Shown in pieces: positions 2,919 to 25,864 of a DNA stretch of 25,864 nt. Origin of the DNA: a virus; the IMG/VR virus record IMGVR_UViG_3300028392_000266, positions 1 to 25,864 of that record. The stretch is one strand, 5' to 3'. How positions within the stretch are numbered: position 1 is the first letter of the stretch; every line of letters begins with the position of its first letter. The notes beneath the pieces were generated by a model that saw only the letters and a list, made by a program, of their open reading frames with translations, searched no databases and had not been told where the DNA came from. Position numbers and translations under genes: made by a program.

Positions 2919-3311
2919 ATGGCTAATGAATTATTAGGTAAAAAGGGAGCAGTTAAAATAGGGGCAAATACTGTGGCATCATTGGGTAATTGGAAATTAG
3001 ATACATCAGGTGCTGAATTAGATGTAACTTCATTTGGAACAGACTTATGGAAAGATAAGATTATTGGACTAAAAGAATGGTCAGCAACAGCAGATGGTTC
3101 TTATGTAATAGTAACAGATACTAATGGTCAAACAGCATTACAGACAGCTTACTTGGCAGGAACAAGTGTAACTCTTAACTTATATGTTGATGCTACACAC
3201 CACTATACAGGAACAGCATATGTAAAGAAAATAGGAATAGATACATCTACTCCAGAAGTTGTTAAAGTATCATTCGAATTTACAGGAACTGGAGCTTTAA
3301 CACAATCATAA
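2919..3311 (+). CDS. Major tail (tube) protein
   Basis: This is the predicted subunit of the hexameric tail tube of a long non-contractile tail. The 130-aa sequence begins ELLGKKGAVKIGANTVASLGNWKLD, with the motif LDVTSFGTDLWKDKIIGLKEWSATADG, and ends FEFTGTGALTQ. These are the classic elements of Firmicutes siphovirus tube proteins: an initial strand pair, a DVTSFG loop, a W-SATADG strand and a terminal GTG strand. It has a strong AAAGGAGG ribosome-binding site, its own putative promoter upstream and a hairpin directly after the stop, all consistent with high expression. The next gene is a longer paralogue with the same core. Confidence 0.88.
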   Translation: MANELLGKKGAVKIGANTVASLGNWKLDTSGAELDVTSFGTDLWKDKIIGLKEWSATADGSYVIVTDTNGQTALQTAYLAGTSVTLNLYVDATHHYTGTAYVKKIGIDTSTPEVVKVSFEFTGTGALTQS

Positions 3312-3340
3312 GAGAGTAGTGTTTACTACTCTTTCCCTTT
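3311..3340 (+). terminator. Hairpin after the tail tube gene
   Basis: AGAGTAGT (3313-3320), a GTTT loop and ACTACTCT (3325-3332) form a perfect 8-bp stem, extendable to 10 with a wobble pair. TTCCCTTT follows. It overlaps the stop codon of the tube gene. The broken U-tract suggests partial termination or mRNA stabilisation rather than full stop. Confidence 0.6.
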
Positions 3341-3366
3341 ATATAATAGGAAGGAGGTATTAAGAT

Positions 3367-3993
3367 ATGACAGTTACATTAGGACTCTTAGGAGCAGTTT
3401 ATAAATCAGGAATATCAACATCCTTTACTGATGAAGTAGTAACTGATGGAGGAGCTCATACAATATATACAATAACTGATACAGATATTAGATTTATAGA
3501 TATAACAAAAGAATTAGTAGTTACTAAACAAACTCATGGAGCAGGACTATTTAATAAGGTAACTAACTTTACTTATAATCCTATAACTGGAGTAATTACA
3601 TTTGATACAGCTAATAATAATGATGATGTTGTTAAAGTATCAGGTTATAACTTTACATTAGCTACTGAAGCATCACTTGGATTCTATAGTTGGAAGTTAG
3701 ACTTGAATGCTAATGAAATAGATATTACACAGTTTGGTAATGATGGATGGAAACAGAAGATTCTTGGACTAAAAGAATGGAGTGCTACAGCAGAGAAGTT
3801 TTACCTAACTGATAGTTATGATGACCTAATAGGAGTAACTTTAATATTCCAATTCTTTCTTAATGAAGATGGTGGAGATTATTATTATGGTTATGGTCAA
3901 ATAAAGAAACAAGGTTTAGATACATCTACTGCTGAAGTTATTAAAGAGAACTTAGAGATTACAGGAACTGGAAAGATATACTTTGTATCTTAA
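3367..3993 (+). CDS. Second tail tube paralogue with N-terminal extension
   Basis: The C-terminal half (from about residue 100) matches the preceding tube protein motif by motif: SWKLDLNANEIDITQFGNDG parallels NWKLDTSGAELDVTSFGTDL, and LGLKEWSATAE and DTSTAEVIK...TGTGK are also shared. An extra block of roughly 75 residues near the N-terminus (about 22-95, including ITDTDIRFIDITKELVVT) separates the first strand pair (LGLLGAVYKSG) from the core and could be a small beta domain displayed on the tail. ATG follows AAGGAGG at 3351-3357. The product may be a minor tube subunit or tube-associated decoration. It is 208 aa versus 130 for the paralogue. Function is inferred from similarity within this window. 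Confidence 0.75.
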   Translation: MTVTLGLLGAVYKSGISTSFTDEVVTDGGAHTIYTITDTDIRFIDITKELVVTKQTHGAGLFNKVTNFTYNPITGVITFDTANNNDDVVKVSGYNFTLATEASLGFYSWKLDLNANEIDITQFGNDGWKQKILGLKEWSATAEKFYLTDSYDDLIGVTLIFQFFLNEDGGDYYYGYGQIKKQGLDTSTAEVIKENLEITGTGKIYFVS

Positions 3994-11849: not shown

Positions 11850-11867
11850 TATAAGGAGGATATAAGA

Positions 11868-12011
11868 ATGGATGCTATAGATATTAAAGAATTAGTAATA
11901 GATACACCTATACAACAGAAACCTCAAACACCTAGCCTTCCCTCTAATAAAGAGAAGGCTATACTTGAGGAAGAATGCTTACAAAGCTTTATAGATGGAG
12001 GTGTTATTTAA
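11868..12011 (+). CDS. Small protein of unknown function (47 aa)
   Basis: Function is not recognised. The ORF has a strong AAGGAGG site at 11853-11859 and an ATG start, and its stop TAA overlaps the next start as TAATG at 12009-12013. The product is acidic and proline-containing in the middle (PIQQKPQTPSLPSNKEK) with a C-terminal helix (AILEEECLQSFIDGG). Its end carries the GGAGGT ribosome-binding site of the next gene, so the two are translationally coupled. It could be a small assembly factor or linker for the receptor-binding protein, by position only. Confidence 0.65.
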   Translation: MDAIDIKELVIDTPIQQKPQTPSLPSNKEKAILEEECLQSFIDGGVI

Positions 12012-13492
12012 TGGCAGTTACTATATCAGAAAGTAATCATGGATATACTCATGTAGTTGGTAGTATGAGTGGACTACAATATACAGCAGAAAATTATGAT
12101 TGGTTCGGATGGGAATTATATAAGTGGGATGGTTCTGCTTGGCAATATCAATCATGGATAGGTAATAATCCTGCTGACCATACTGGAACTACTTCATGGA
12201 CTCAAGAATTTACTGATAATCAACCAGGCTGTGCTTATTATGTTAGATTCTATGCTCAATATCAAGGAACATGGTATTCATTCATATCAGGAACATGGAC
12301 TTCTACTGATTATATACCAGATGCTACTTTTAGTAATAATTCTACACAGAAGACTACTATTACTTTTGATTATACTAATAGTGCTGGAACTATGAGTCTT
12401 TTCGTATGGAATGGTTCAGCATATGTAGGGATAGCAAGTTCTGGTTTACCTTATAATAAGACAGGTGACACAATAACATTAAACACATTATTGCCTAATC
12501 AGGGATATTCTTTTATAGTTAGAACTTATGTAGAGTCTTGGTATAGTGAAACTACTTATGTGACATACACTACTCAAGATTGGATGACTATACCTTCAGG
12601 AGTAGTCTTAGGTTCTTCTGGACGATATAATGGTGGTATGTTTGTTAGTTGGGGGGACCATGGTTATGAAAGTTCTGGATTCCATTATTACTTACAAATA
12701 GATGGTGGAACAGTCCAATATAGTAGTAGTTATCTTAACTATTCATATGATGCTCAAGATTATAGTGTTCAACATAACTTTAGAGTAGTTCCTAATTATA
12801 ATGGATATCCTCCTTCAGGGACTCAAGGATGGTATTATGATAGTAGCCATTACACTTCATTAGCATATATATGGACTGCTCCTCACTATCCTACTGGTAT
12901 TAGTATAGGAACTAAAACAAGTTCTTCTATTGCCCTAACAGCTACAGGTATGACAGGTTTATATAGTGCTGTAGAATGGAGATATAGAGTATATGGTAGT
13001 GGTAGTGGATGGAGTAGTAGTATTGATTATGGTGGTAGTATGTCAGTTACATTAAGTTCTCTATCTTCCTATACTAACTACGAAATAGATGTTTATGGTT
13101 ACTATGGAACTTCTGGTGTTACTTCTGTAGGTCATTATGATATAACTACTTATACTAAACCTTCTACTTTCTCATGGACTACATCTATTAGCCAAGGTGG
13201 AGGTATATATGGTTATGATTTAGCTAACTATAGATTAAAGATACTTACTGCTGTAGAATGGAATGCCTTTACTACTCGTATTAATCAGTATAGAGCATAT
13301 TTAGGCTATGGAGGATATACTTTTACTACGGTATCTACTAATACTGCTATGACTGCTTCTATCATCAATGAAGCTATAACTGCTATTAATGCTATGAGTC
13401 CTCCTACATCAACTCCATCTTCTGTTAGTTCAGGAAATACAATTACTGCTTATATATTTACAAGATTAAGAGATTCATTAAATTCTCTATAG
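12011..13492 (+). CDS. Repetitive beta-domain receptor-binding/tail protein
   Basis: The 493-aa product is rich in tyrosine, serine, threonine and tryptophan and looks like a series of fibronectin-III-type beta-sandwiches. Examples are SSIALTATGMTGLYSAVEWRY...VTLSSLSSYTNYEIDVYGYYG and the similar TITLNTLLPNQGYSFIVRTYVESWY. The N-terminal domain has several tryptophans (DWFGWELYKWDGSAWQYQSW) that could bind carbohydrate. The C-terminus (from about residue 405) is a helical segment, LTAVEWNAFTTRINQYRAYLGY...AIIN-type, seen at the end of some phage tail proteins. Start is ATG 12011 because GGAGGT lies at 11998-12003. It probably acts as an adhesin or fibre at the tail tip (inference). Confidence 0.65.
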   Translation: MAVTISESNHGYTHVVGSMSGLQYTAENYDWFGWELYKWDGSAWQYQSWIGNNPADHTGTTSWTQEFTDNQPGCAYYVRFYAQYQGTWYSFISGTWTSTDYIPDATFSNNSTQKTTITFDYTNSAGTMSLFVWNGSAYVGIASSGLPYNKTGDTITLNTLLPNQGYSFIVRTYVESWYSETTYVTYTTQDWMTIPSGVVLGSSGRYNGGMFVSWGDHGYESSGFHYYLQIDGGTVQYSSSYLNYSYDAQDYSVQHNFRVVPNYNGYPPSGTQGWYYDSSHYTSLAYIWTAPHYPTGISIGTKTSSSIALTATGMTGLYSAVEWRYRVYGSGSGWSSSIDYGGSMSVTLSSLSSYTNYEIDVYGYYGTSGVTSVGHYDITTYTKPSTFSWTTSISQGGGIYGYDLANYRLKILTAVEWNAFTTRINQYRAYLGYGGYTFTTVSTNTAMTASIINEAITAINAMSPPTSTPSSVSSGNTITAYIFTRLRDSLNSL

Positions 13493-13516
13493 TATTGGTT
13501 ATACTTAACAATTTTA

Positions 13517-13525
13517 TGTTATAAT
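13517..13525 (+). promoter_or_regulatory. Extended -10 promoter before the XhlA-like gene
   Basis: TGTTATAAT has a perfect TATAAT at 13520-13525 with the TG extension. It is a one-base variant of the TGCTATAAT promoter word found elsewhere in the window. A second TATAAT lies at 13531-13536. No clear -35. It would give the putative lysis gene its own promoter. Confidence 0.5.
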
Positions 13526-13558
13526 TTAGGTATAATATTACTGGAGAGGAGTGTTAAA

Positions 13559-13762
13559 ATGAATCATGTATGTATTAACCAAGTAAATATATCTCAAGCT
13601 GAAAAACAAATAGCTGTATTAGAAAATAAGGTATGTAATAATACTGAAGATATTAATAGAATAGAGAAGTTAATGGGGAAAACATTCTATGTATCTATTA
13701 CCACATTAATAACGCTTATAGGTGGTATGGCTGTAGTAATATTTAATTTAATAGTAAAATAA
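13559..13762 (+). CDS. XhlA-like membrane protein (holin-associated)
   Basis: The 67-aa protein has an N-terminal coiled coil (residues about 9-40, with the LENKV and INRIEKL heptads) and one C-terminal transmembrane helix (about 44-64, FYVSITTLITLIGGMAVVIFNLI) ending in a lysine. This is the layout of the haemolysin XhlA / BhlA family encoded in lysis cassettes of Firmicutes phages. It has a GGAGAGGAG site at 13543-13551 and its own putative promoter. No endolysin gene follows, which is unusual. It may act alone in membrane disruption or have another membrane role. Confidence 0.75.
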   Translation: MNHVCINQVNISQAEKQIAVLENKVCNNTEDINRIEKLMGKTFYVSITTLITLIGGMAVVIFNLIVK

Positions 13763-13779
13763 TCAAAGGATGTGTTCCT

Positions 13780-13956
13780 ATGAAATATATAGTAGGAAGT
13801 CAAGTTTTTATTCCCTCGATTGGTATATCTGGACTTGTTGTAGACATTAAATATCCAGATAGTAAATACTTGGAACCTCAAAATAATTATTACATAGTAA
13901 ATATTTATAATAATATATATTATTTCTTAGAACACGAAGTAGAGATTGTGCTATAA
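13780..13956 (+). CDS. Small protein of unknown function (58 aa)
   Basis: Function is not recognised. The ORF starts at ATG 13780 after AAAGGA (13765-13770) and ends TAA before the bidirectional terminator, so it is the last gene of the rightward unit. The product is beta-rich: KYIVGSQVFIPSIGISGLVVDIKY, then NYYIVNIYNNIYYFLEHEVEIVL. It resembles a small SH3-like barrel of the kind seen in minor phage proteins. No cysteines, signal peptide or membrane segment are present. It is too short to hold a lysin domain. Coding status is supported by the ribosome-binding site and codon pattern. Confidence 0.65.
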   Translation: MKYIVGSQVFIPSIGISGLVVDIKYPDSKYLEPQNNYYIVNIYNNIYYFLEHEVEIVL

Positions 13957-13994
13957 TGAAGTATAGCCTTCTCTTCTCTTCTCCTCATATTAAA

Positions 13995-14028
13995 AGCCAC
14001 TACCATAAATGGTAGTGGCTTATTTTTA
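13995..14028. terminator. Bidirectional terminator between convergent units
   Basis: AGCCACTACCAT (13995-14006) and ATGGTAGTGGCT (14009-14020) form a perfect 12-bp hairpin. Rightward it is followed by TATTTTTA; leftward it is followed by TTTTAAT. It lies between the last rightward gene (ends 13956) and the last leftward gene (ends 14026), so one hairpin can serve both operons. Confidence 0.92.
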
Positions 14029-14195: not shown

Positions 14196-14306
14196 TTATT
14201 CACCTCCCATCATTATTATAAATAGTATTGCTTTTATCGTTGCTACTATACCTATACTTATTAATATTGCCATTAATATTTGTGCTATTACAGTTTCTAC
14301 TATCAT
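14196..14306 (-). CDS. 36-aa single-pass membrane peptide
   Basis: The product is nearly all hydrophobic (MIVETVIAQILMAILISIG, then IVATIKAILFIIMMGGE) with one acidic residue near the N-terminus and one lysine in the middle. It forms one long or two very short membrane helices. ATG overlaps the TGA stop of the upstream repressor as ATGA, indicating translational coupling. Its 3' end contains the ribosome-binding site for the next gene, so it is embedded in a tight operon. It could be a tiny holin-like or superinfection-exclusion membrane peptide; nothing in the sequence decides. Confidence 0.65.
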   Translation of the reverse strand: MIVETVIAQILMAILISIGIVATIKAILFIIMMGGE

Positions 14307-14551
14307 ACATTAACCCACATCTCATATCTTGATTTATCTGCTATTATAGTAATGTTATCATCTAATTCTTCTATAGTTACATTTAATACTGTAGCTATTC
14401 TTTTCTTTATGTAGTCACTAACAAATATAGTTACATTTTCTATCCCTTGTATTTGGTATACTGATACTTTAGCCATCTTAGCTAATTGTTCTTTACTTAT
14501 TCTTTTTTCTTGTCGGATTTTTCTTAACATTGTTGTACCTCTAATTTTCAT
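14303..14551 (-). CDS. XRE-family transcriptional repressor (Cro/CI-like)
   Basis: The 82-aa protein carries a Cro/CI-type helix-turn-helix at about residues 8-62 (MLRKIRQEKRISKEQLAKMAKVSVYQIQGIEN ... IKKRIATVLNVTIEEL), with the typical SKEQLAKMAKVS turn. A short tail (DDNITIIADKSRYEMWVNV) follows; there is no peptidase domain, so it is Cro-sized. The start at 14551 is chosen because AAAGGTGG lies 8 bases upstream; a longer frame to 14587 lacks a ribosome-binding site. The stop is TGA, one of only two in the window. It likely regulates early or late promoters. Which operators it binds is unknown. Confidence 0.8.
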   Translation of the reverse strand: MKIRGTTMLRKIRQEKRISKEQLAKMAKVSVYQIQGIENVTIFVSDYIKKRIATVLNVTIEELDDNITIIADKSRYEMWVNV

Positions 14552-14651
14552 TTTGAATTCCACCTTTATATTAGACCATATAGACACACTTAATATTTTT
14601 GATATAGTATGTCTACTGTTATGTTTAATGGTCTTCCTATGCTTATTTACC

Positions 14652-15412: not shown

Positions 15413-15574
15413 TTATTTAAATGGATACGTTAATATTATTGTTTCTATAAAGTTTGATTGTGTTCTATTCTCTGATTCTGCTATAGATTTAAGTTTATTA
15501 ATAGCTTCTTCTGATAATCTAATACTTATCATTCGTCTAACCTCTTCTTTAAGAGGTCTACCTTTATTAGCCAT
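15413..15574 (-). CDS. Ribbon-helix-helix (CopG/Arc-type) DNA-binding protein
   Basis: The 53-aa protein contains a basic arm (MANKGRPLKEEVRR) and a full RHH fold: strand MISIRLSEEA, helix INKLKSIAESEN, turn RTQSNF, helix IETIILTY. It has the conserved R-T-x-S start of the second helix. Such proteins bind as dimers to short palindromes and often autoregulate. It has an AGGAGG site and a well-formed promoter (TATAAT at 15609-15614). It is the first gene of the HNH-coil-XRE transcript. Targets are unknown; copy control or early gene repression are both possible. Confidence 0.82.
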   Translation of the reverse strand: MANKGRPLKEEVRRMISIRLSEEAINKLKSIAESENRTQSNFIETIILTYPFK

Positions 15575-15690: not shown

Positions 15691-18441
15691 TTATATATTA
15701 GATGTTTGTGGATGAGGAATATTTGAAAAAGTATGAACGGTGCATTTATTATCTATAAGTCTTGCTCTTCCTACTGATTGAACTAAATGAACTATAGATT
15801 CATAACTACTAATATCTTCTATATCTTTATTAGAATAGCCTATATTACAGTAAATAATACCTGATGTTTCTTTCTTAATTTTACGAGGTGCAATTTCTGT
15901 AATATCTTTCTTTTCTAAAGCACAATATACAAGGTGTGGATTCATTGGATTGCTTAAATATGTGCCTATAATAGCCATATCTAAACCTTTAAACTTGTTT
16001 ATACCTAATTCATTACCATATGTGCATATAACTTCTATACCTTCTTTTTCAAACTTCTCTTTATATGATTTATAAGTAATAATTTTGTTAATATTCAATC
16101 TCTTCAATTCATTAATAATAGTAGTGAATCCTTCTACTGTTTCTAAATAGTTCTTGTAACAAGGTAATTCGTGATGATGTATTATTTCTCCTAACAACTC
16201 TGTATTTGGTATTTCTATATTAGTGAATGGGACTGATACACACATATTTAATATCTTTGTTAAATTAGGAGTTGCTGTTAGCATTATTAACTTCTTATCA
16301 GCTGCTACTAACTTATTTACTGTATATATGAATATATCATTATCTACTCTACATAATGATTGAGCAATTGCTAACATATCAAGTTGTGATGTGATTTTAT
16401 GTTCTAATTTAAGTTCTGTTAAATTTTCTATATCTTTACTTCCTAATTCTAATCTTGTATATCTATATTTATGAGGTGCGTGACATATTGCTGATTGCAT
16501 TGCTTCCATCAATCCTGGATTACTTGTTGTATCTCTTGTCTTCTCATATATTAATTGTGCTTGTTGTGTAGTTATGGTTAATACGTGTTGTGCTGTTTTA
16601 CATATATCTTCATCAATTATAATAGTTTCTATACCTTTAAAGTGATTAGGTTGCATTCTTAATAGAAAAGCGTGTGTGCATACTATTTTATTATGAGTTC
16701 TTGCTAATATTCTTGTTTCTTTATGTTCTTCTATTTCAAATAGTATTTGATTGTAGTATTCATTATTATCTAATTCATAATTCTGTGCTATAAAATCTGC
16801 TGCTTTATCTACTATTTTAATTAGTTGTTTATAATCACCTATTGCTTCACATTGCTTTGCTTGAACTTCTAATTCAAATAACTCTTTAATAAATGGCTTA
16901 TTACAATATAAAGTAGGTCTTGCTATTATATAAACTACATCTGTATGACCTTTTTGTATTAATTCATCTAATGTTTCTTGACACTTTTCGTGTGTAGGTA
17001 ATGCTATCAATTGACCTTTATCAAAGTTTTCTATAGTTTGTTGTGATTTTCCTAATCCTGTAGGACAAGTGATTAAAGTTGCTTTTGTATTATTATGTAA
17101 TGTTTCTTTGTATGAGGTAGATAATATTAATCTTGCTTGTTCTTTGCTAATTACATCCAAATCTTCTTTTCTATATACTATATTAGCTCTTGATTGACCC
17201 ATATATGCCATTATCTTCTTATCTGAATTACCAAACTTACTACTATTACATTCATTATAATATGGACAATTGTTTTGACAATAAAATGGTGCTGAATTCT
17301 TCTTTTGCATATCATATAATATTTGCATTCTATTGTCTATTCTCCATTCTGCTGAATGTTCTCTATCTGATTCCATATTAGCTTCTAATATTTGTAAGAA
17401 CTTTTTGCTTCCTCCTTCTATTCTTGCGAATTGACTTGCTAAAAACATTGATGTAGTTCTATCAAATCCATTATGTTCACCTTTAATTAATTCTCTATAG
17501 TATTTACAATTACCTTGTAATGCTTCAAATGAGTAGTTAGTTATTAAGTCTATATCACTATGCTCTCTATTAGTTCCTACATCTACTTTACCTTTTTTAT
17601 CAGTAGGGCAATATTTGTATGTGTTATTATCAATATGGTATCTAAAATTTAAGTGGCTGAAAGTCGCTTGTAGGGCAGATTCTGGGACTTTTTTATCAGT
17701 TTTTACCGAAGCTACCATTACTCCTATATATATATTAATAGGAGTAATGGTGGTATCGGTGTTTTTGATACTTTTTTGCTTCAAACCTTGATAACTACTG
17801 GCTTCAAGGGCATTAAAAATTATATCCAAATTACCATTAAATATGTTAATTCCTGTCTTTCTACTAATATTACTTAAAATATCTGCCTTTTTATCCTTAT
17901 GTGATTTATCTATATTAGTTTGAAAGGCTATTACCATATTATAAACACTTAAAGGAGTAGTATGAACAATTGCCCCTTTCTTATCTGTTCCAAACCATAA
18001 TCTTGAACAATCAATTGCATTCATATCTCCATCAACAGTTTTAGTAGCAATATAAGTCATAACTTCGTGAACTCTTAATTCAGTGCATACTTCAGGATAT
18101 ATCCAAATTAGACGATATTTAGGCTTTTTAGGAGTATGTGAAGCACTATAGTACCAAGCATTCGGTAGTATGCCTAATTCCTTACATTCTAATAGCATTG
18201 CTGATATATCTTTATCTGAATTATCTACATCTACTACTAATAATTCTGTAGATTCAAAATTTTCTTTACATCTCTTACCATTAAAACAACTTGAACTCCA
18301 AGATTTAGAATTAGTAGTATGTTTCATTAACTCTTGTAAGTTCATTTCTACATTATGTAAATCATTAGATATTTGACCAATGATTCCTACTTTAGTATCT
18401 TTTTTCTTTAAATATTTAATATTACTAATAGATATCTTCAT
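15691..18441 (-). CDS. Primase-polymerase / SF2 helicase replication protein
   Basis: The 916-aa protein is the only replication enzyme in the window. The N-terminal part (about 65-165) has archaeo-eukaryotic-primase motifs: hydrophobic-DVD at D71 and D73, S-A-S-H ending at H102, then YRLIW, and an acidic D144 with R147 (IDCSRLWFG). A middle part has four cysteines (C312, C388, C392, C398), a possible Fe-S or zinc site. The C-terminal half is a superfamily 2 helicase: Walker A CPTGLGKS (459-466), DEDI at 610-613, TATP at 722-725, and QSVGRAR at 888-894. ATG follows AAGGAG with 8 bases. Likely role: initiation and unwinding at the adjacent repeat region. Assignment is from motifs. Confidence 0.85.
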   Translation of the reverse strand: MKISISNIKYLKKKDTKVGIIGQISNDLHNVEMNLQELMKHTTNSKSWSSSCFNGKRCKENFESTELLVVDVDNSDKDISAMLLECKELGILPNAWYYSASHTPKKPKYRLIWIYPEVCTELRVHEVMTYIATKTVDGDMNAIDCSRLWFGTDKKGAIVHTTPLSVYNMVIAFQTNIDKSHKDKKADILSNISRKTGINIFNGNLDIIFNALEASSYQGLKQKSIKNTDTTITPINIYIGVMVASVKTDKKVPESALQATFSHLNFRYHIDNNTYKYCPTDKKGKVDVGTNREHSDIDLITNYSFEALQGNCKYYRELIKGEHNGFDRTTSMFLASQFARIEGGSKKFLQILEANMESDREHSAEWRIDNRMQILYDMQKKNSAPFYCQNNCPYYNECNSSKFGNSDKKIMAYMGQSRANIVYRKEDLDVISKEQARLILSTSYKETLHNNTKATLITCPTGLGKSQQTIENFDKGQLIALPTHEKCQETLDELIQKGHTDVVYIIARPTLYCNKPFIKELFELEVQAKQCEAIGDYKQLIKIVDKAADFIAQNYELDNNEYYNQILFEIEEHKETRILARTHNKIVCTHAFLLRMQPNHFKGIETIIIDEDICKTAQHVLTITTQQAQLIYEKTRDTTSNPGLMEAMQSAICHAPHKYRYTRLELGSKDIENLTELKLEHKITSQLDMLAIAQSLCRVDNDIFIYTVNKLVAADKKLIMLTATPNLTKILNMCVSVPFTNIEIPNTELLGEIIHHHELPCYKNYLETVEGFTTIINELKRLNINKIITYKSYKEKFEKEGIEVICTYGNELGINKFKGLDMAIIGTYLSNPMNPHLVYCALEKKDITEIAPRKIKKETSGIIYCNIGYSNKDIEDISSYESIVHLVQSVGRARLIDNKCTVHTFSNIPHPQTSNI

Positions 18442-18446
18442 TTATT

Positions 18447-18588
18447 TTACTCCTTACTATCAATTGTAAACATACGTTCAATAATTAATCTCATATAATC
18501 TGATACTGTTCTGTTATCATTATTTGCTAATTTCTTAATATTGTTTAATACCTCTGGCTTAATCTTCACACAATAATTCTCTTCTCAT
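18447..18588 (-). CDS. RHH (CopG-like) protein with apparent +1 frameshift
   Basis: A frame from GTG 18569 to TAA 18447 encodes 40 residues forming almost a complete ribbon-helix-helix: VKIKPEVLNNIKKLANNDN, then RTVSDYMRLIIERMF. The frame is readable upstream as EENYC until a TGA, which supplies the missing part of the beta-strand. However, the good ribosome-binding site (GAGGAG) precedes ATG 18588, which is one base out of phase (ATG AGA A|GAG AAT TAT TGT). Deleting one A there would give MRENYCVKIKPEV. Either a recent indel, a sequence error or a +1 shift explains this; a weak GTG start is the alternative. It is the first gene after the operator-bearing leftward promoter and is probably autoregulatory. 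Confidence 0.6.
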
Positions 18589-18634
18589 TTTTATCAATCT
18601 CCTCTAACAAATTTTATTTTACTCTCTTACTATC

Positions 18635-18663
18635 ATTATAGCATATTTTGTAGATAATGTCTA
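18635..18663 (-). promoter_or_regulatory. Main leftward promoter (RHH and primase-helicase)
   Basis: On the minus strand, TAGACA (18658-18663; five of six to consensus) is followed by 17 bases and a perfect TATAAT (18635-18640) with the extended TG. It contains the exact TATGCTATAAT word found at rightward intergenic sites. This is the best sigma-A-type promoter in the window. Confidence 0.85.
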
Positions 18664-18665
18664 CA
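18649..18665. promoter_or_regulatory. Palindromic operator overlapping the leftward promoter
   Basis: TGTAGATAATGTCTACA is an inverted repeat with perfect 6-bp arms (TGTAGA / TCTACA) around a 5-base centre. It overlaps the -35 element and spacer, so a bound repressor would block transcription. The RHH protein encoded first in the operon, the second RHH protein or the XRE protein could be the ligand. Confidence 0.65.
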
Positions 18666-18854
18666 CTTTAAATAAATAAATAAATTAAAACCACTATGCT
18701 TATTAAGAGATACTATGCTTTTACTGTATTTAATTTTAGAAAGTACAGTTCCCCCAAAGTTAGGCAGATTAACTGGTTTAGAGTTTTTACTGTACTTACT
18801 ATACTTTTTTTATTAAAAATTAATAATATAGTATATACACCATACATATTAGAT

Positions 18855-18883
18855 ATATGTAAGCATATATAATATGTAAGCAT
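18855..18883 (+). repeat. Direct repeat ATATGTAAGCAT x2
   Basis: Two identical 12-mers at 18855-18866 and 18872-18883 have a 17-base period, within the AT-rich centre of the candidate origin. The 17-base spacing places both on nearly the same helical face offset, as for cooperatively bound sites. Confidence 0.7.
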
Positions 18884-18887
18884 CTAT

Positions 18888-18931
18888 TTTTTAGTATATT
18901 ATATATAAAGAAGTTAGAACTATACTAAAAA
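18888..18931. repeat. 11-bp perfect inverted repeat
   Basis: TTTTTAGTATA (18888-18898) and TATACTAAAAA (18921-18931) are exact reverse complements separated by 22 bases. The right arm overlaps a near-match of the ACTRTRCTT family and abuts the tandem AGCCCAGT pair at 18931-18946. It could be a cruciform or a binding site; there is no adjacent U-tract that would favour a terminator. Confidence 0.6.
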
Positions 18932-19015
18932 GCCCAGTAGCCCAGTTTGCTTACAGAGAGTAAGGATACAGGGTACTATGTTTATTTTAAAAGCACAGTA
19001 AAGCACAGTAGGCAT

Positions 19016-19046
19016 AAAAAAAGAAGTATCTAAATTAATAGATACT
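19016..19046 (-). terminator. Leftward terminator at the right edge of the origin region
   Basis: On the minus strand, AGTATCTA, a 6-base loop and TAGATACT form a perfect 8-bp stem (19025-19046). TTC and seven T residues follow (19016-19022). No leftward gene lies just upstream, so it would end either an antisense or small RNA, or stray transcription entering the repeat region. Confidence 0.65.
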
Positions 19047-19099
19047 CCGCATGATTTAAAAAATTATCCCTTACTATTATTATACTCCATAATTTACTA

Positions 19100-19114
19100 A
19101 TACGGAACTCGTAT
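19100..19114. promoter_or_regulatory. Palindromic operator-like site before rightward unit
   Basis: ATACG-GAACT-CGTAT is a perfect 5-bp inverted repeat, notable for its GC-containing arms in very AT-rich DNA. It lies about 25 bases upstream of a TATAAT (19139-19144) and 48 bases before the first rightward gene. It differs from the leftward operator, so a different regulator may bind. Confidence 0.45.
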
Positions 19115-19138
19115 AAATATAAAACTTTAATATATAGA

Positions 19139-19144
19139 TATAAT
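19139..19144 (+). promoter_or_regulatory. Putative -10 of the first rightward promoter
   Basis: A perfect TATAAT lies 18 bases before the GTG start of the 54-aa gene, with the ribosome-binding site GAGGTGAGG in between. No convincing -35 is seen (AT-rich bases only). The closeness to the gene leaves a very short leader, so this is tentative. Confidence 0.4.
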
Positions 19145-19161
19145 ATTATAGAGGTGAGGTA

Positions 19162-19337: not shown

Positions 19338-20381
19338 ATGGCTAACGATTTAGTATTAATAAATAATAATAGACCAATCACTACATCAAGGATAATAGCT
19401 AAAGAATTTAATAAACAACATAAAAATATACTTAGAGATATAAGAAACCTTGAATCCAGTCCAGAATTTAACCAGCTCAATTTTGAACTGGTCGAATACA
19501 TAGATTCTAAAGGTGAATCAAGACCAGAATATTTAATTACTAAAGATGGATTTACTTTTTTATGTATGGGATTTACAGGAGAGAAAGCAGCAGAGTTTAA
19601 AGAAAAATATATTATAGCTTTTAATAATATGGAAGATAAGATAAATAACAATTATTTATTGACTAAATCTAAATATAATAAGAAGAAAATATGTAAAACT
19701 TTTATAACAGCAGATATAAATACTATACAACAGGAAGTATATAATGCTATAGAATATATTAAAGAAGAAAACAAACCTACAGAACAAGTTCAATTGATTA
19801 AATCTATTACTAAAGGATTAGACAAGAAGAAACAACTACTTGCTATTGACAATCTAGTGGCAAATATGGGGTATATCTATACGTTAGAACATGAATCACG
19901 TAAACTATTAGAACATAATACAAAGCTCCAGAATCGAATAAATGGAGGACAGAAGACAGCATTAAAGAAAGAGTTAAGAAAGACAAAAGAATATAATACT
20001 TTATTGACTGAAACTATAGAAGGTATAGAAGAACCACCTGATATCTCTGATTATAACCAAATAGATATACATGGCTTCTCTAATAACTTTATGTATAATA
20101 CCACAGGTAATAAGACATATAAGACTACTTATTATCAGAAATGGATAGATTCATTCCCTATACACCAGATAGTCCAACAAGAAGTAACAATAGATAGTAA
20201 ACTATACATATCTTTTATCTGTAAGGAATCTCTTGATATACATAATCTTACTAAAAGTTTTATAGATAGACTGGCTACTGTATTAGGCATAGATGATAAG
20301 ATATTCATTAATGTGGTAATAGCAAGACATTCTATATGTAATACATACCAAGAAGGTAAAATACTATATATAATAAAGTAG
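19338..20381 (+). CDS. Rha-family protein fused to a RusA-like domain
   Basis: Residues about 1-100 form a pRha domain: ITTSRIIAKEFNKQHKNILRDIRNL, then EYLITKDGFTFLCMGFTGEKAAEFKEKYIIAFN. This is the phage regulatory module first described in lambdoid phages. A helical linker (105-230) follows. From about 242 the sequence looks like RusA Holliday-junction resolvase: an N-terminal FSNNFMYNTTGNKTYKTTYYQKW, then LDIHNLTKSFIDRLATVLGIDDKIF (299-323), then a terminal QEGKILYII strand. In RusA the motif is DxDN..K...D....DD; here D300 is present, but the second acidic position is H302. K306, D310, D319 and D320 are retained. Activity is therefore uncertain. The AGGAGG site at 19325-19330 fixes the start. 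Confidence 0.75.
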   Translation: MANDLVLINNNRPITTSRIIAKEFNKQHKNILRDIRNLESSPEFNQLNFELVEYIDSKGESRPEYLITKDGFTFLCMGFTGEKAAEFKEKYIIAFNNMEDKINNNYLLTKSKYNKKKICKTFITADINTIQQEVYNAIEYIKEENKPTEQVQLIKSITKGLDKKKQLLAIDNLVANMGYIYTLEHESRKLLEHNTKLQNRINGGQKTALKKELRKTKEYNTLLTETIEGIEEPPDISDYNQIDIHGFSNNFMYNTTGNKTYKTTYYQKWIDSFPIHQIVQQEVTIDSKLYISFICKESLDIHNLTKSFIDRLATVLGIDDKIFINVVIARHSICNTYQEGKILYIIK

Positions 20382-20666: not shown

Positions 20667-21083
20667 ATGCTAAAACACCAACATTTATTGTTCGTTATTA
20701 AATTCTTAGAAACAAATAGTGCTAAAGATTCATATAAACATGCTTACCCACAAGCTAATGATAATACATGTAAGATTAACGGATGTAAATTACTATTAAG
20801 ACAAGATATAAAGGATTATATATCTGAACAACAAGAGATACTAAAGAATAAGTCATTAGTAGATAAAGAAGAATTACTACTAATAGCATTAAATATAGCA
20901 AGAGATTCAAGACAAGAAGGAACTAAACTTAAGGCAATAGATACTCTAAATAAGATGTTAGGCTATTATAGTCCAGTAGAATCAAAGACTAAAGCAGAAG
21001 TAGTTATAAGTAATCCTTTAGAACATCTAACTGATGAAGAATTAGATGCTATACTTACTAATGTAGGTGATACTAATGAATAG
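20667..21083 (+). CDS. Terminase small subunit
   Basis: The small terminase recognises the packaging site and regulates the large subunit. The 138-aa protein has an N-terminal helix-turn-helix-like region (FVIKFLETNSAKDSYKHAYPQANDNTCKINGCKLLLRQDIKDYI), which is the pattern of Terminase_2-type small subunits: a block like (Y/F)...N...A...AYP, then N-G-x-L-L-x-(R/N)-x-x-I-x-x-Y-I. A central oligomerisation helix and an acidic C-terminus (LEHLTDEELDAILTNVGDTNE) follow. Start has an AAGGAAGTG site. It overlaps the large subunit gene by 8 bases, the usual coupled arrangement. Confidence 0.82.
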   Translation: MLKHQHLLFVIKFLETNSAKDSYKHAYPQANDNTCKINGCKLLLRQDIKDYISEQQEILKNKSLVDKEELLLIALNIARDSRQEGTKLKAIDTLNKMLGYYSPVESKTKAEVVISNPLEHLTDEELDAILTNVGDTNE

Positions 21084-22521
21084 AGAAGATAAGATGAAAC
21101 TTATCTATGCTAAATTAGAGAAATCTATAAGAGAATCAAGAAAGTCATTCTGGACTTATTGTAAGACTATTAACCCTAAATTCTATAAAGATGATAGAGT
21201 ATACTTAAAGACTATCTGTGATACACTACAATCTCTATATGAACAAACATTAATAAATCCTACTACTAATAAACCATATAGATGTCTACAACTAAACTGT
21301 CCTCCAGGATTTGGTAAGAGTTATACTATGATACTATTTGCTCAATGGTTATTCGGTAATAATATAGATAATGAAGTTATAACAGTATCATATAATGAGA
21401 AACTATCTGAAGTATTTGGGAAGACAGTAAGAAATGGTATAGAAGCATTAAAGGATAAGACTAAAGGAGAAGTAAGTTTTAAAGATGTATTCCCTAATGT
21501 AAAGATTAAATATGGAGATGCTGCTAAATCATCTTGGGCATTAGAAGGTAGACACCACTCCTACTTAGCTACATCCTTTACAGGAACTTTAACTGGTATG
21601 AGAGGTAACTGTGGTATTATAGATGATCCTGTTAAGTCAGCAGAAGTAGCCTATAATGAACAAGAACTGGAAAATCAATGGGAATGGTATAAAGATACTT
21701 TCTTATCTCGTATGGTAGAAGGTGCTATACAGATAATAGTTCAAACAAGATGGTCTACTAAAGACTTATCAGGAAGACTATTAGAACTGGAACCTGATAA
21801 ATGGTATGTATTAAAGTTTGAAGCTTATGATGAAGATACAGATACTATGTTATGTGATGAACTAATGAGTAAGGAAACATATATAGATAAGAAGAGTAAA
21901 ACATCTGCTGATATATTCTTAGCTAATTATCACCAATTAACGGTAGATACTAAAGGTAAACTTTATTCTAAACTAAGAGATTATCAAACACTACCTACTA
22001 CAACAGAAACTATAGCTTATTGCGATACAGCAGATACAGGTAATGATTACTTATCTCTTGTTATAGCATCAATATATAAAGGTCAAGCATATATAAAAGA
22101 CATCTACTATACTAAGGAATCTATGGAGATAACAGAACCTATAGTAACTAAACTTCTATATGAACATAAAGTTAACACTTGCTATATAGAATCAAATAAT
22201 GGTGGTAGAGGATTCGCAAGGAATATAGAAAGACTATTATGGGATACCCACCACTCAAGACATACAAGAATAGAATGGTTCCATCAATCACAGAATAAAC
22301 AAGCAAGGATACTATCTAATGCTACTAATGTAATGAACAACATCTACTTTCCTATTAACTGGCAACAACAATATAAAGATGCCTATATAGCACTAAATAC
22401 TTATCAAAAAGAAGGTAAGAATAAACATGATGATTTCCCTGACACTCTTACTGGACTATATGAGAAGATGGGTAATAATACTGGAGGAGTATATAGTAAA
22501 AAATCTTTAGGTATTAGATAA
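21076..22521 (+). CDS. Terminase large subunit
   Basis: This is the packaging motor ATPase and nuclease. In the 481-aa product, Walker A is CPPGFGKS (75-82), Walker B is CGIIDDP (179-185), and a coupling-type motif QTRWSTKDL lies at 223-231. The RNase-H-like nuclease shows D317 (CDTAD), E372 (YIESNNGGRG) and an acidic cluster HDDFPD (451-456). All key residues are present. Start is taken at ATG 21076, with AGGTGA upstream; the in-frame GTG at 21067 is inside that site. It overlaps the small subunit gene. The portal gene does not follow; a promoter and the scaffold gene do. Confidence 0.93.
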   Translation: MNREDKMKLIYAKLEKSIRESRKSFWTYCKTINPKFYKDDRVYLKTICDTLQSLYEQTLINPTTNKPYRCLQLNCPPGFGKSYTMILFAQWLFGNNIDNEVITVSYNEKLSEVFGKTVRNGIEALKDKTKGEVSFKDVFPNVKIKYGDAAKSSWALEGRHHSYLATSFTGTLTGMRGNCGIIDDPVKSAEVAYNEQELENQWEWYKDTFLSRMVEGAIQIIVQTRWSTKDLSGRLLELEPDKWYVLKFEAYDEDTDTMLCDELMSKETYIDKKSKTSADIFLANYHQLTVDTKGKLYSKLRDYQTLPTTTETIAYCDTADTGNDYLSLVIASIYKGQAYIKDIYYTKESMEITEPIVTKLLYEHKVNTCYIESNNGGRGFARNIERLLWDTHHSRHTRIEWFHQSQNKQARILSNATNVMNNIYFPINWQQQYKDAYIALNTYQKEGKNKHDDFPDTLTGLYEKMGNNTGGVYSKKSLGIR

Positions 22522-22534
22522 TATATTTAGTAAT

Positions 22535-22545
22535 TATGCTATAAT
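22535..22545 (+). promoter_or_regulatory. Extended -10 promoter before scaffold and capsid genes
   Basis: The exact TATGCTATAAT word, with TATAAT at 22540-22545, lies between the terminase stop and the scaffold gene. It leaves a leader of roughly 55-60 bases. It would allow strong independent expression of the capsid genes. No good -35 is seen. Confidence 0.6.
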
Positions 22546-22609
22546 ATACTTAGATAGTAAAATATCAAATCGTCTCCCATGACGTTAAATGCGTGAAGGA
22601 GGAATAGAC

Positions 22610-23155
22610 ATGAGTGAAGGAGTTAAAGCTTTACTTGGTGAAGAACTATACAGCAAGGTGACAGAGAAGTTAGGTGAGAAGAAAATAGACTTACTTGATG
22701 GATACATACCAAAGAATAGGTTTGATGAAGTCAATACTTCTAAAGCACAACTGAAGACTCAAGTTGGAGAGTTATCCAATCAGTTAGAAGCATTGAAAGG
22801 GAAAGCATCAGGCAATGATGACCTAATGAAGACAATAGCAGAACTACAAGGAAAGAATAAAGACTGGGAAACAAAATACCAGACAACATTATTAGAAACA
22901 GCTATAACATCAGAAGCAACAAAAGAAAAAGCAAGAAATAGTCAAGATATATTAGCATTTATAGATAGAGGACAATTAGTATTAGAAGAAAATGGTAAAG
23001 TCAAGGGATTGTCTACTCAACTAACAGAGCTCAAGAAGAGTAAACCATACCTCTTTGATATAGCACCACAACAAACACCTGGCACTAACCCAGCAGGAAC
23101 TAATAACAATGATGGAGAAAACTCTTGGATGAGTAAACTCTCTAAATTAGTATAA
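22610..23155 (+). CDS. Scaffolding protein, Gp20-type
   Basis: The internal scaffold directs procapsid assembly and is removed later. The 181-aa protein has the family signature YIPKNRFDEVNTSKAQLKTQVGELSNQLEAL (a short entry motif, then a long coiled coil), a second helix (MKTIAELQGKNKDWETKYQT) and a C-terminal part with a polar linker (QQTPGTNPAGTNNNDGENS) and a terminal helix WMSKLSKLV that would bind coat protein. Start is ATG 22610 because AAGGAGGAA precedes it; the longer frame from 22589 begins inside the leader. It directly precedes the capsid gene. No protease domain is visible, so it is not a fused prohead protease. Confidence 0.85.
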   Translation: MSEGVKALLGEELYSKVTEKLGEKKIDLLDGYIPKNRFDEVNTSKAQLKTQVGELSNQLEALKGKASGNDDLMKTIAELQGKNKDWETKYQTTLLETAITSEATKEKARNSQDILAFIDRGQLVLEENGKVKGLSTQLTELKKSKPYLFDIAPQQTPGTNPAGTNNNDGENSWMSKLSKLV

Positions 23156-23178
23156 TAAAATTATAGGAGGAATATATT

Positions 23179-24075
23179 ATGAGTAATACTGTAGGATACG
23201 CAAAGGCTTATATCGCAATGCTTGATAAAGCATACAAACAAGGAGCAATGACAGCAGGATTAGAAGCAGACGCATCACAGTTTAGAGCAAGTGACATCGC
23301 AGCTAATTCAATATATGTAAGAAAGGTAGCAGCAGATGGTTTAGCTGACTATTCACGTTCTACTGGTTATGTTGGTGGAGACACTACTATATCTTGGGAA
23401 GCACATACTTTTGCTTTTGATAGAGCAAGAAAATATACATTAGATGCTATGGATGAAATGGAAGCATATACTCAAGCAGCAGAAGTAGCAGCAGAAGTAT
23501 ATAGACTTTCAGTAATACCAGAAATAGATGCTTACAGATTTAGCAAATTAGTATCTATCGCAGGATTAGATGTATCAGCTACCTTAACTGATGATACTTG
23601 TATAACAGCATTAGATACAGCAATTGCTACTATGGATGATAATGAAGTTCCACAAGAAAATAGAATACTTTATGTATCTAACAATATGTATAAATTAATG
23701 AAACAGTCTGGAGAATTCTTCAATGTAAGAACTGGTTCTATTCAAGTAATGGACAGAAATATAGAAGTATTCGATGGTATGCCAATAATTAAAGTTCCTA
23801 CAGCAAGATTCAAGAGTGCTTTCACATTCTTAGATGGAACAAGTCAAGGAGAAACTGCTGGAGGATTTGTACCTACTCAAGGAGCTAAAGATTTAAACTT
23901 TGCTATTGTATCTAAAGGTTCAACTCTTGGTATAGTTAAACATATAGCACCTAAATTAATAGCACCAGCATTAAATCCAGATTCAGACGGATACGTTTTC
24001 GGCTTTAGAGTATATCATGACCTATTCGTATTAGATAATAAGACTAATGGAATATATATCCATTCAAAAGCCTGA
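23179..24075 (+). CDS. Major capsid protein, HK97-fold
   Basis: At 298 aa this is the most abundant virion protein candidate. It follows the scaffold gene and has the coat pattern. An N-terminal helix arm (VGYAKAYIAMLDKAYKQGAMTAGLEA) leads to a beta/E-loop region with YSRSTGYVGGDTTISWEAHTFAFDRARKYTLDAMDEMEA. A spine helix follows (TQAAEVAAEVYRLSVIPEIDAYRFSKL), then a P-domain tail with GSTLGIVKHIAPKLIAPALNPDSDGYVFGFRVYHDLFVLDNKTNGIYI. ATG lies 8 bases after AGGAGG. The stop is TGA, one of two in the window. Codon use here is less AT-rich in places (several GCA, CAA and CGC-like choices), as expected for high expression. Confidence 0.9.
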   Translation: MSNTVGYAKAYIAMLDKAYKQGAMTAGLEADASQFRASDIAANSIYVRKVAADGLADYSRSTGYVGGDTTISWEAHTFAFDRARKYTLDAMDEMEAYTQAAEVAAEVYRLSVIPEIDAYRFSKLVSIAGLDVSATLTDDTCITALDTAIATMDDNEVPQENRILYVSNNMYKLMKQSGEFFNVRTGSIQVMDRNIEVFDGMPIIKVPTARFKSAFTFLDGTSQGETAGGFVPTQGAKDLNFAIVSKGSTLGIVKHIAPKLIAPALNPDSDGYVFGFRVYHDLFVLDNKTNGIYIHSKA

Positions 24076-24086
24076 AATTGACTAAT

Positions 24087-24107
24087 GGGGAGCAAGTCTC
24101 CCTTCTT
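24087..24107 (+). terminator. Short hairpin after the capsid gene
   Basis: GGGAG (24088-24092), a 5-base loop and CTCCC (24098-24102) are followed by TTCTT. The stem is short but GC-rich for this genome. It may terminate part of the capsid transcripts or protect the capsid mRNA. Confidence 0.5.
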
Positions 24108-24131
24108 ATATAACTAAAGGAGGAATAATAA

Positions 24132-24518
24132 ATGGCAAACACTTTAAAAGGTAAGTTAGCAGCTTTAGAAGTATTATGTGCTGGATTACCAACAGATCCA
24201 GCTGATGCTTCAGATATAGCATCACTTATAGCAGCAGTTAAAGCAGTAGTAGATGATATTAAAAGTTATACTGACACAGAAGTAGCAGCAATCAAAGCTA
24301 AAACAGATAATCTTCCAGTTAGTCCTTGTGCAACAGCTGATGTAGCTAATGCATTAGTAGATGTTAAACACAAAGATATCAATGCAACATTCGCACCAGC
24401 TACTGATAGTTTAGAAGCAATAAGTGATAAATTAGGAACTATAGCAGATGTAGCAGGAACCAATACAATCGTAGCATTACTTAAAGCAATCAAGGCTAAA
24501 ACAGATACAATAGGTTAA
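24132..24518 (+). CDS. Small repetitive helical head protein (128 aa)
   Basis: Function is not certain. The protein is alanine-, aspartate- and threonine-rich, with a repeated motif: IKAKTDNLPVSP (about residues 54-65) and IKAKTDTIG at the C-terminus, plus LCAGLPTDPADASDI near the N-terminus. Motifs of the form KTDNLPxDPA occur in phage head-fibre and decoration proteins, where they form trimeric helical stalks. It follows the capsid gene, behind an AAGGAGG site, in the place where decoration or head-fibre proteins are encoded. A head fibre or decoration protein is the best guess. Confidence 0.6.
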   Translation: MANTLKGKLAALEVLCAGLPTDPADASDIASLIAAVKAVVDDIKSYTDTEVAAIKAKTDNLPVSPCATADVANALVDVKHKDINATFAPATDSLEAISDKLGTIADVAGTNTIVALLKAIKAKTDTIG

Positions 24519-24531
24519 GGGGAGACATCAT

Positions 24532-24618
24532 ATGACTACAGTTAAGAGTGAGACAGATAAGATAGACTTATTGATTAAGAAAGTTAATGAGATATTAATA
24601 TTAATTAAAGATAAGTAA
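24532..24618 (+). CDS. 28-aa micro-protein in the head module
   Basis: The ORF has a good site (AAGGGGAG at 24517-24524) 7 bases before ATG. The product is one amphipathic helix: MTTVKSETDKIDLLIKKVN, then EILILIKDK. The heptads could associate with the helical protein encoded just before. It is followed by a hairpin. Coding status rests on the ribosome-binding site and reading frame; a leader function for the hairpin cannot be excluded. Confidence 0.5.
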   Translation: MTTVKSETDKIDLLIKKVNEILILIKDK

Positions 24619-24625
24619 ACCGTAG

Positions 24626-24660
24626 GAGGGATAAGGTATTTAATACCCTATCTCTCTTTT
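24626..24660 (+). terminator. Hairpin with U-tract in the head module
   Basis: GAGGGATAAGGTA (24626-24638), a 5-base loop and TACCCTATCTCTC (24644-24656) pair over 13 positions with one wobble and one mismatch. TTTTATT follows. It looks like a rho-independent terminator, possibly partial, because head and tail genes continue downstream without an obvious new promoter. Confidence 0.7.
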
Positions 24661-24680
24661 ATTAATTAAAGGAGGAGAAT

Positions 24681-24758
24681 ATGCTAAATACTAAAGTAAT
24701 AGCATCAGTAACTATAGCAGCAGTAATAACAAGGGCAGATGGAACTATAGAAGATTAA
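24681..24758 (+). CDS. 25-aa micro-protein in the head module
   Basis: The ORF follows AAGGAGGAG at 24669-24677 and ends TAA just before the next AGGAGGG site. The product, MLNTKVIASVTIAAVITRA followed by DGTIED, resembles short head-region proteins carrying a V-(V/I)-TRADGT pattern. It looks like a small beta-hairpin peptide rather than a membrane protein. The tight spacing in an operon argues that it is translated. Function unknown. Confidence 0.55.
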   Translation: MLNTKVIASVTIAAVITRADGTIED

Positions 24759-24771
24759 GGAGGGAATATAT

Positions 24772-25584
24772 ATGAGTGAACAATACCTTATAGGAGATAC
24801 AGTAAAACTTACTTGTGAGTTCATAAATAAAGAAGATGGTGTAACACCTGTAGATCCAACAAGTATTACATTAAAGATATATGATGAGAATAGAGTTCAA
24901 ATAGGTTCTACAGTAACTATAACATCATCTAATAAGATATCTACTGGACTATATTATTATTACCTAACAATACCTAACAATCCACCACATATAAGCACAG
25001 AATGGATAGGTATTAAAGACAGTATAACTTATAGAATAAATCCAAGAATAAATATAGTATGGGATGAATCAGATATTAATGAACTACCTACTATAACACT
25101 TACAGTAGCAACAAATACTTATATCTCATTAGAAGATGCCAATACTTACTTTACTACTAAATTGAACAGTAATATATGGGATTCTTCTAATGATACTGAT
25201 AAAAGTAAAGCATTAATACAAGCAACTAACAATATAGATATGTTACTATTTCAAGGAGTAAAAAGAATACCTACACAAGCCCTACAGTTTCCAAGATACT
25301 TTAGTTATTATAAGCTAAATACAGATATGTTTATTACAGAGCTTGATATACCTGTAGAAGTAGAAAAAGCATGTTGTGAGGAAGCTATAGCTTTATTGAC
25401 TAATATAGTATCACCTAACCAAAGGTATGAACTACAAAGACAAGGAGTAAAGAGTGTTAGTTTTGGAGATGCTTCTGAATCTTATACAGCAGGATTAAAT
25501 AATACCTTAATAAGCACAACAGCTAAACAACTACTAAGTCCATATATAGCTAATAGTGTACCTGTATTAAGAAGGAGGATATAG
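24772..25584 (+). CDS. Head-tail adaptor with N-terminal Ig-like domain
   Basis: The 270-aa protein has two parts. Residues about 1-98 are a beta-sandwich of the bacterial Ig / BppU type: YLIGDTVKLTCEFINKEDGVTPVDPTSITLKIYDEN, then TGLYYYYLTIP. From about 115 the sequence matches adaptor-type connector proteins of the SPP1 gp15 / DnaT-like group: YISLEDANTYFTTKLNSNIWDSS, ALIQATNNIDMLLFQGVK, QALQFPRY, IPVEVEKACCEEAIALL, then QRQGVKSVSFGDASESY and LLSPYI. These are helical ring proteins bound under the portal. Fusion to an Ig-like domain is uncommon; it may decorate the neck. ATG follows AGGAGGG at 24759-24765. The stop overlaps the ribosome-binding site of the next gene. Confidence 0.75.
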   Translation: MSEQYLIGDTVKLTCEFINKEDGVTPVDPTSITLKIYDENRVQIGSTVTITSSNKISTGLYYYYLTIPNNPPHISTEWIGIKDSITYRINPRINIVWDESDINELPTITLTVATNTYISLEDANTYFTTKLNSNIWDSSNDTDKSKALIQATNNIDMLLFQGVKRIPTQALQFPRYFSYYKLNTDMFITELDIPVEVEKACCEEAIALLTNIVSPNQRYELQRQGVKSVSFGDASESYTAGLNNTLISTTAKQLLSPYIANSVPVLRRRI

Positions 25585-25585
25585 T

Positions 25586-25864
25586 ATGTTTAATGAACTA
25601 ATGAATAGAACATTAACTATTAAACGTGTATCTTCTGTTAATACATATGGAGAGCTAACTACTATAAACCTTACTATTAAATGTAGACTTGAAATAATAC
25701 AAAAGCAGTTTGATAATGGAAAAGGTGCTATAATAGATAGTGAAGGAGTTATATATTCTACTACTAAGTTACTTGTTAATGATGGTATAGTATATAATAC
25801 TATAGAATATAGTGTTATCAAAGTAGATACTGTAATAGATTTATTTGGTAATATCCAACACTAC
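25586..25864 (+). CDS. Head closure protein, cut by the window end
   Basis: This frame starts at ATG 25586 behind AGGAGG and is open to the last base (93 codons exactly). It begins MFNELMNRTLTIKRVSS and contains ...LLVNDGIVYNTIEYSVIKVDTVIDLFGNIQHY. It is a beta-barrel with a terminal G-N-x-x-H-Y motif, as in gp16-type head-closure (stopper) proteins. If the window is circular, the frame continues from base 1 (LQSIFNIGGEYKCLQM) to TAA at 49-51. That gives 109 aa, a normal family length, and overlaps the portal start at 36 by 16 bases. Partial in this window. Confidence 0.75.
   Translation, partial: MFNELMNRTLTIKRVSSVNTYGELTTINLTIKCRLEIIQKQFDNGKGAIIDSEGVIYSTTKLLVNDGIVYNTIEYSVIKVDTVIDLFGNIQHY

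Follow-up and report, generated by a model that had tools for sequence, protein, structure and literature searches.

What does the largest noncoding gap of this virus do, lying between two divergent operons and next to a replication gene? The window analysed here, 25,864 bases long, is the whole of a virus record. Once its two ends are connected, the reading frame of the gene in the head-closure position runs through without interruption, and the portal gene keeps a good ribosome-binding site. The gene series of terminase, scaffold, capsid, adaptor, closure, portal, neck and tail continues across the join. Given this in-frame join and the continuing gene order, the genome is probably circular and complete. 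In the head module (36–1409 and 20667–25864), the portal gene follows the gene in the head-closure position and does not lie between terminase and scaffold, which is an unusual order for such modules. Two adjacent genes at 2919–3993 both match the major-tail-protein family PHROG_1407, apparently as a result of duplication. At 11850–14025, no endolysin was recognised, though the genome appears complete; the small protein encoded at 13559–13762 has one membrane-spanning stretch and could be holin-like. Nor was an integrase recognised in the genome with its ends joined; lytic phages lack integrases too. No structured RNA or tRNA was found.

The gap measures 574 bp, the runner-up 253 bp. Its limits and the neighbouring genes that bear on its function are as follows.

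18588–19161, unstranded: noncoding gap between the divergent operons, 574 bp, taken from the list of open reading frames
18447–18584 (or 18447–18569), minus strand: short ribbon-helix-helix-like frame of 40–45 codons directly upstream of the PrimPol-helicase gene, a weak assignment
15691–18441, minus strand: primase-polymerase (PrimPol) fused to a superfamily-2 (SF2) helicase, 916 aa, assigned from motifs and alignments
15413–15574, minus strand: Arc-like ribbon-helix-helix protein, 53 aa (PHROG_876, E 1.6e-6; PHROG_3431, E 3.6e-6)
14303–14587, minus strand: Cro/C1-type helix-turn-helix protein, 94 aa, from profile matches; another candidate binder
19338–20381, plus strand: antirepressor-like phage regulatory protein of the Rha family, encoded second in the rightward operon, which continues to the terminase genes

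The leftward operon thus comprises the ribbon-helix-helix-like frame, the PrimPol-helicase, the Arc-like protein, an HNH protein, a small protein and the Cro/C1-type protein. The rightward operon starts with a small protein, the Rha protein and another small protein, followed by the terminase and structural genes. Within the gap lies a family of short repeats.

18693–19009, unstranded: cluster of 9-bp boxes ACTRTRCTT, seven exact and five weaker

The exact copies are found at 18693, 18712, 18789 and 18798 on the plus strand and at 18741, 18991 and 19001 on the minus strand, just as the initial annotation had placed them. It had also described near copies, and a weight matrix built on the seven exact copies indeed added the weaker boxes at 18723, 18919 and 18975 on the plus strand and at 18930 and 18938 on the minus strand. 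Equally sound were its placement of the cluster in gene-free DNA, which lies inside the 574-bp gap, and next to the primase-helicase operon, since the leftward operon with the PrimPol-helicase adjoins. At a matrix score of at least 8, the cluster contains 11 sites, versus 0.5 per 317 bp elsewhere. Dinucleotide shuffling of 18693–19009 gave a mean of 0.08 boxes and a maximum of 2, and the observed seven were reached in none of the 5000 shuffles. Correction for motif choice, in which all 9-mers with two R/Y positions competed and the highest count was taken, gave at most 5 in 300 shuffles; among the other 317-bp stretches sampled in the genome, none exceeded 5 for the best similarly degenerate 9-mer. 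Counting over the whole genome, a check that had been proposed with the annotation, yielded 12 exact copies against 2.9 expected, seven of them within the 317 bp. The remaining five, all ACTATACTT, lie dispersed inside structural genes, as chance would allow. If up to one mismatch is accepted, the genome-wide excess is slight (65 versus 51 expected), so the signal is the local cluster. The repeat cluster is real and non-random.

These counts bear on the explanation that the boxes share no function and arose by chance or by slippage duplication in an AT-rich gap. One box pair is a simple 10-bp tandem duplication, and the same decamer occurs in tandem in two unrelated phage contigs (L001 and L002), as expected from either process. 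However, the clustering is far beyond chance even after the correction for motif choice, and the copies extend over 317 bp in both orientations with variation at the two R positions, unlike one expanding tract. We regard this explanation as hardly credible.

An AT-rich core separates the boxes into two groups, at 18693–18806 and 18919–19009.

18808–18907, unstranded: AT-rich core, candidate DNA unwinding element, nearest-neighbour energy −96.1 kcal/mol

By nearest-neighbour energy, the core is the least stable 100 bp anywhere in the genome. The two identical 12-mers reported from the core are present as ATATGTAAGCAT at 18855 and 18872, and where one 11-bp inverted repeat had been claimed, two perfect ones exist (18865–18875/18896–18906 and 18888–18898/18921–18931). 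The region contains no DnaA box TTATNCACA, which speaks against an origin. Repeats far above chance adjoin an easily melted stretch: the boxes flank the weakest 100 bp, within the largest noncoding gap, and a replication gene is adjacent. On this anatomy, the region at 18.69–19.01 kb is, on balance, probably the replication origin of the phage, of the known type (SPP1, lambda O) that combines repeats with an AT-rich unwinding element. From the same arrangement we infer the origin itself, the start of melting at the core and the candidate binders, and propose a putative model. Initially, an initiator from the leftward early operon would bind the 9-bp boxes on either side of the core. The bound initiator, probably multimeric, would strain and open the core at 18.81–18.91 kb. 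Afterwards, the PrimPol-SF2 helicase encoded next door would be loaded at the opened core, unwind the DNA and lay the first primers. Finally, a host polymerase would take over from the PrimPol-helicase.

Two further aspects of the gap count against an origin. The spacing of the boxes is irregular, from 8 to 121 bp, and both strands are used, unlike the regular, one-orientation iterons of plasmids; of the six boxes left of the core, five are on the plus strand, and of the six right of it, four are on the minus strand, numbers too small for a significant symmetry. An AT-rich, repeat-bearing gap between divergent operons also resembles a control region. The initial annotation had read the region as an iteron-controlled origin. 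An origin does fit the boxes, the weak core, the gap and the replication gene, but plasmid-type initiation is unsupported. Its further claim of a phage-plasmid was not borne out, as no Rep_3- or RepA-type initiator and no ParA, ParM or TubZ was recognised among the proteins scanned; nor does the claim follow from the repeats, since lytic phages such as SPP1 have such origins, although an integrase was not recognised either. A switch in GC skew, suggested as a further check, was seen near 19 kb. Every gene has a positive overall skew on its own coding strand, so this switch is expected from gene orientation and is uninformative on the origin.

The lack of recognised partition genes also bears on the idea of a centromere-like partition site of an extrachromosomal prophage, which would be bound by a ribbon-helix-helix protein like ParR or omega. 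Short repeated boxes, ribbon-helix-helix genes and the absence of a recognised integrase agree with such a site, and ribbon-helix-helix partition proteins do bind such arrays (PMC9499535). However, none of the three partition proteins was recognised among the proteins scanned, the genome appears complete with its ends joined, and a partition site is highly improbable.

The gap also contains transcription signals, against which its resemblance to a control region can be weighed.

18635–18663, minus strand: strong sigma-70-like promoter of the leftward operon (TAGACA, 17 nt, TATAAT), with TG preceding the −10 hexamer
18649–18665, unstranded: palindrome TGTAGA-N5-TCTACA (TGTAGATAATGTCTACA) over the −35 of the leftward promoter, putatively a separate operator
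18777–18805, plus strand: weak promoter-like site (TTTAGA, 17 nt, TATACT), 9 of 12 consensus positions, overlapped by the boxes at 18789 and 18798
19023–19048, minus strand: hairpin resembling a terminator, with a T run behind it, directed leftward into the cluster

In an operator array, a phage regulator, either Arc-like ribbon-helix-helix or Cro/C1-type, would fill many weak sites cooperatively and control both the early leftward operon and the rightward operon of Rha and late genes. The region does lie between divergent operons, candidate regulators are available in two ribbon-helix-helix-like proteins, a Cro/C1-type protein and Rha, all encoded by the phage, and one box pair overlaps the weak rightward promoter-like site. 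Furthermore, ribbon-helix-helix proteins bind arrays of short boxes in both orientations; omega of pSM19035, for example, binds 7–10 heptads overlapping promoters (PMC9499535). However, the strong leftward promoter, identified purely by its match to the consensus (11 of 12 positions), is free of boxes, with 30 bp between its −35 and the closest box upstream, and it is covered by a separate palindrome. Simple repression there thus does not explain the boxes. In addition, only that single pair overlaps a promoter-like site, such weak sites are no commoner than in shuffles, and the boxes span 317 bp on both sides of the 100-bp core. Given that ribbon-helix-helix proteins do bind short-box arrays, we keep an operator array as the main rival explanation, possible but less likely than an origin. 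Since Arc of phage P22 binds TAGA boxes (PMC12645479), the Arc-like protein may act at the palindrome over the leftward −35. Such an action would make a ribbon-helix-helix protein on the 9-bp boxes less necessary, though not superfluous. The hairpin at 19023–19048 has no leftward gene to its right and may shield the region from antisense transcription.

If the region is an origin, its boxes could be bound by the PrimPol-helicase, by either of the two ribbon-helix-helix proteins or by the Cro/C1-type protein; no candidate is firmly preferred. No family of O, gp38 or similar replisome organisers was recognised, and the protein encoded adjacent to the cluster is the PrimPol-SF2 fusion. It contains the AEP motif DxD (D71/D73), a cysteine-rich middle and the SF2 motifs I, II and VI, with Walker A at G464–K465, DED at 610–612 and QxxGR at 888–892. 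Profile searches matched the 916-aa product to two weak PHROG helicases and to no other family. It is a full-length PrimPol-SF2 fusion and can be aligned from end to end with homologs encoded in bacterial genomes and on viral contigs. In this alignment, D71, D73, C388, C392, C398, G464, K465, D610, E611, Q888, G891 and R892 are invariant or nearly so. The conserved cysteines C312, C388, C392 and C398 precede the helicase part and could hold zinc or an iron-sulfur cluster. The chain stops about 22 residues past motif VI, the last helicase motif, and thus lacks a UL9-like C-terminal DNA-binding domain, another point against an origin. An AlphaFold model is of low confidence (mean 65.5), does not resolve the middle part at about residues 208–302, and gives XPD/DinG SF2 helicases as its best Foldseek matches. 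Given this low confidence and these matches, the model was set aside as evidence on box binding. Binding through the middle part is possible but unsupported. It is unlikely that the PrimPol-SF2 protein itself binds the boxes, through a domain that its sequence does not reveal, and opens the AT-rich core that they flank. If true, the uncharacterised bacterial PrimPol-SF2 family would gain its first origin, with initiator, helicase and primase in one protein that acts like herpesvirus UL9 on OriS and has priming built in.

The boxes might also serve the PrimPol in another way, as single-strand sites at which it starts primers rather than as duplex initiator sites. The NrS-1 PrimPol starts at TTTGGTTA and GTG motifs, and TTTGGTTA has been proposed to direct its initiation to one place (PMC8718748). 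However, priming needs neither tight clustering nor tandem pairs, and the box cores are not constant (RTR), which makes this a very remote prospect.

Among the small proteins, the frame directly upstream of the PrimPol-helicase gene has weak matches (PHROG Arc-like, E 0.02; Pfam RHH_5, E 0.05). The sole start in this frame itself is a GTG at 18569, which would cut the first strand. A good ribosome-binding site with an ATG lies near 18588 in another frame, which stops after nine codons. The ribbon-helix-helix-like frame at 18447–18600 may be disrupted, mis-assembled or expressed from an unusual start.

We searched for relatives of the locus. In 790 genomes of two classes, distant relatives of the PrimPol-helicase were found (Clostridia and Bacilli), several of them full-length, and profile-guided scans of IMG/VR viral contigs gave 14 and 24 PrimPol-SF2 loci, partly on the same contigs. 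Identity to the relatives found is about 22%, and none is close. In none of the 224 fetched loci do boxes form a comparable cluster, and no clear counterpart adjoins the gene in any PrimPol-SF2 relative. A DNA search of the region in phages and plasmids matched the Rha domain alone, and scans with single proteins (the helicase, the terminase and Rha) against viral and genome contigs found no close relatives of the region. Where tested, relatives of the major capsid protein carry different replication modules. The lack of a shared cluster counts against an origin, but these relatives are too distant to show whether the boxes are conserved. Two candidates for conservation were rejected. The tandem decamer in viral contigs gave two unrelated matches, about the chance level; in L001 it lies close to packaging genes, and in L002, an unrelated phage, its neighbour is a replication-type gene. 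The only strong cluster beside PrimPol-SF2 genes of relatives, RTGGYACCT in the phage contigs L210 and L217, consists of terminator-like hairpins. Both contigs have 1.4–1.7 kb of noncoding DNA between divergent genes (L217:398–2055 and L210:3521–4945), with many GGCACCT-N-AGGTGCC hairpins and GATCGCGATC palindromes.

Comparison with known systems places the locus among described origins and replication proteins. SPP1, a lytic Bacillus phage, has two origins, oriL and oriR, composed of direct repeats and an AT-rich unwinding element (PMC6316719). The present phage resembles it in its siphophage-type genome, in repeats adjoining an AT-rich unwinding element and in an adjacent phage replication gene (PMC6316719). 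However, SPP1 relies on gp38 and a helicase loader, together with a DnaB-family helicase and the DnaG of its host, whereas this phage has a PrimPol-SF2 fusion and no recognised gp38 or DnaB homolog; moreover, the boxes here flank the core on both sides and in both orientations. Kazlauskas and colleagues have described an All3500-type PrimPol joined to a remote SF2/UL9-like helicase (PMC5862659; pVOG 1685/9714; PHROG_25531, 1883 and 256), and the fusion itself resembles it in that PrimPol, cysteine-rich middle and SF2 helicase follow in the same order. Judged by this domain order, rather than by comparison with the published sequences, the window protein may belong to this group, for which we found no described origin.

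The plasmid pRN1 of Sulfolobus encodes a CopG-like repressor, orf56, and a PrimPol-helicase, orf904 (PMC4234260). Here, too, a small candidate ribbon-helix-helix-type frame lies directly upstream of the PrimPol-helicase gene, though its matches are weak (E 0.02 to 0.05) and its start codon is ambiguous. In L210 and L217, a small ribbon-helix-helix-like gene is likewise directly upstream of the PrimPol-SF2 gene (L210, PHROG_876, E 7.8e-4; L217, weak match). The same pairing in these contigs and in the pRN1 operon suggests that the small upstream protein regulates the operon. Herpes simplex OriS with UL9 is similar in that short boxes flank an AT-rich spacer and the protein is an SF2 helicase, but UL9 binds via a C-terminal domain (PMC12543377) absent from the window protein. 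Some of the published bacterial PrimPol-SF2 proteins were reported to be most like UL9; the UL9 Pfam model matched one of five family members, non-significantly (E 0.06).

PrimPol-SF2 phages and mobile elements occur in genomes of Clostridia and Bacilli and in environmental phage contigs, and for none of them did we find a described origin. If the boxes form an origin, a 0.5-kb fragment together with one operon would be a directly testable replicon, which would show whether one protein finds, opens and primes the origin. Most likely, the locus combines an origin architecture familiar from ordinary phages with an unfamiliar replication protein.
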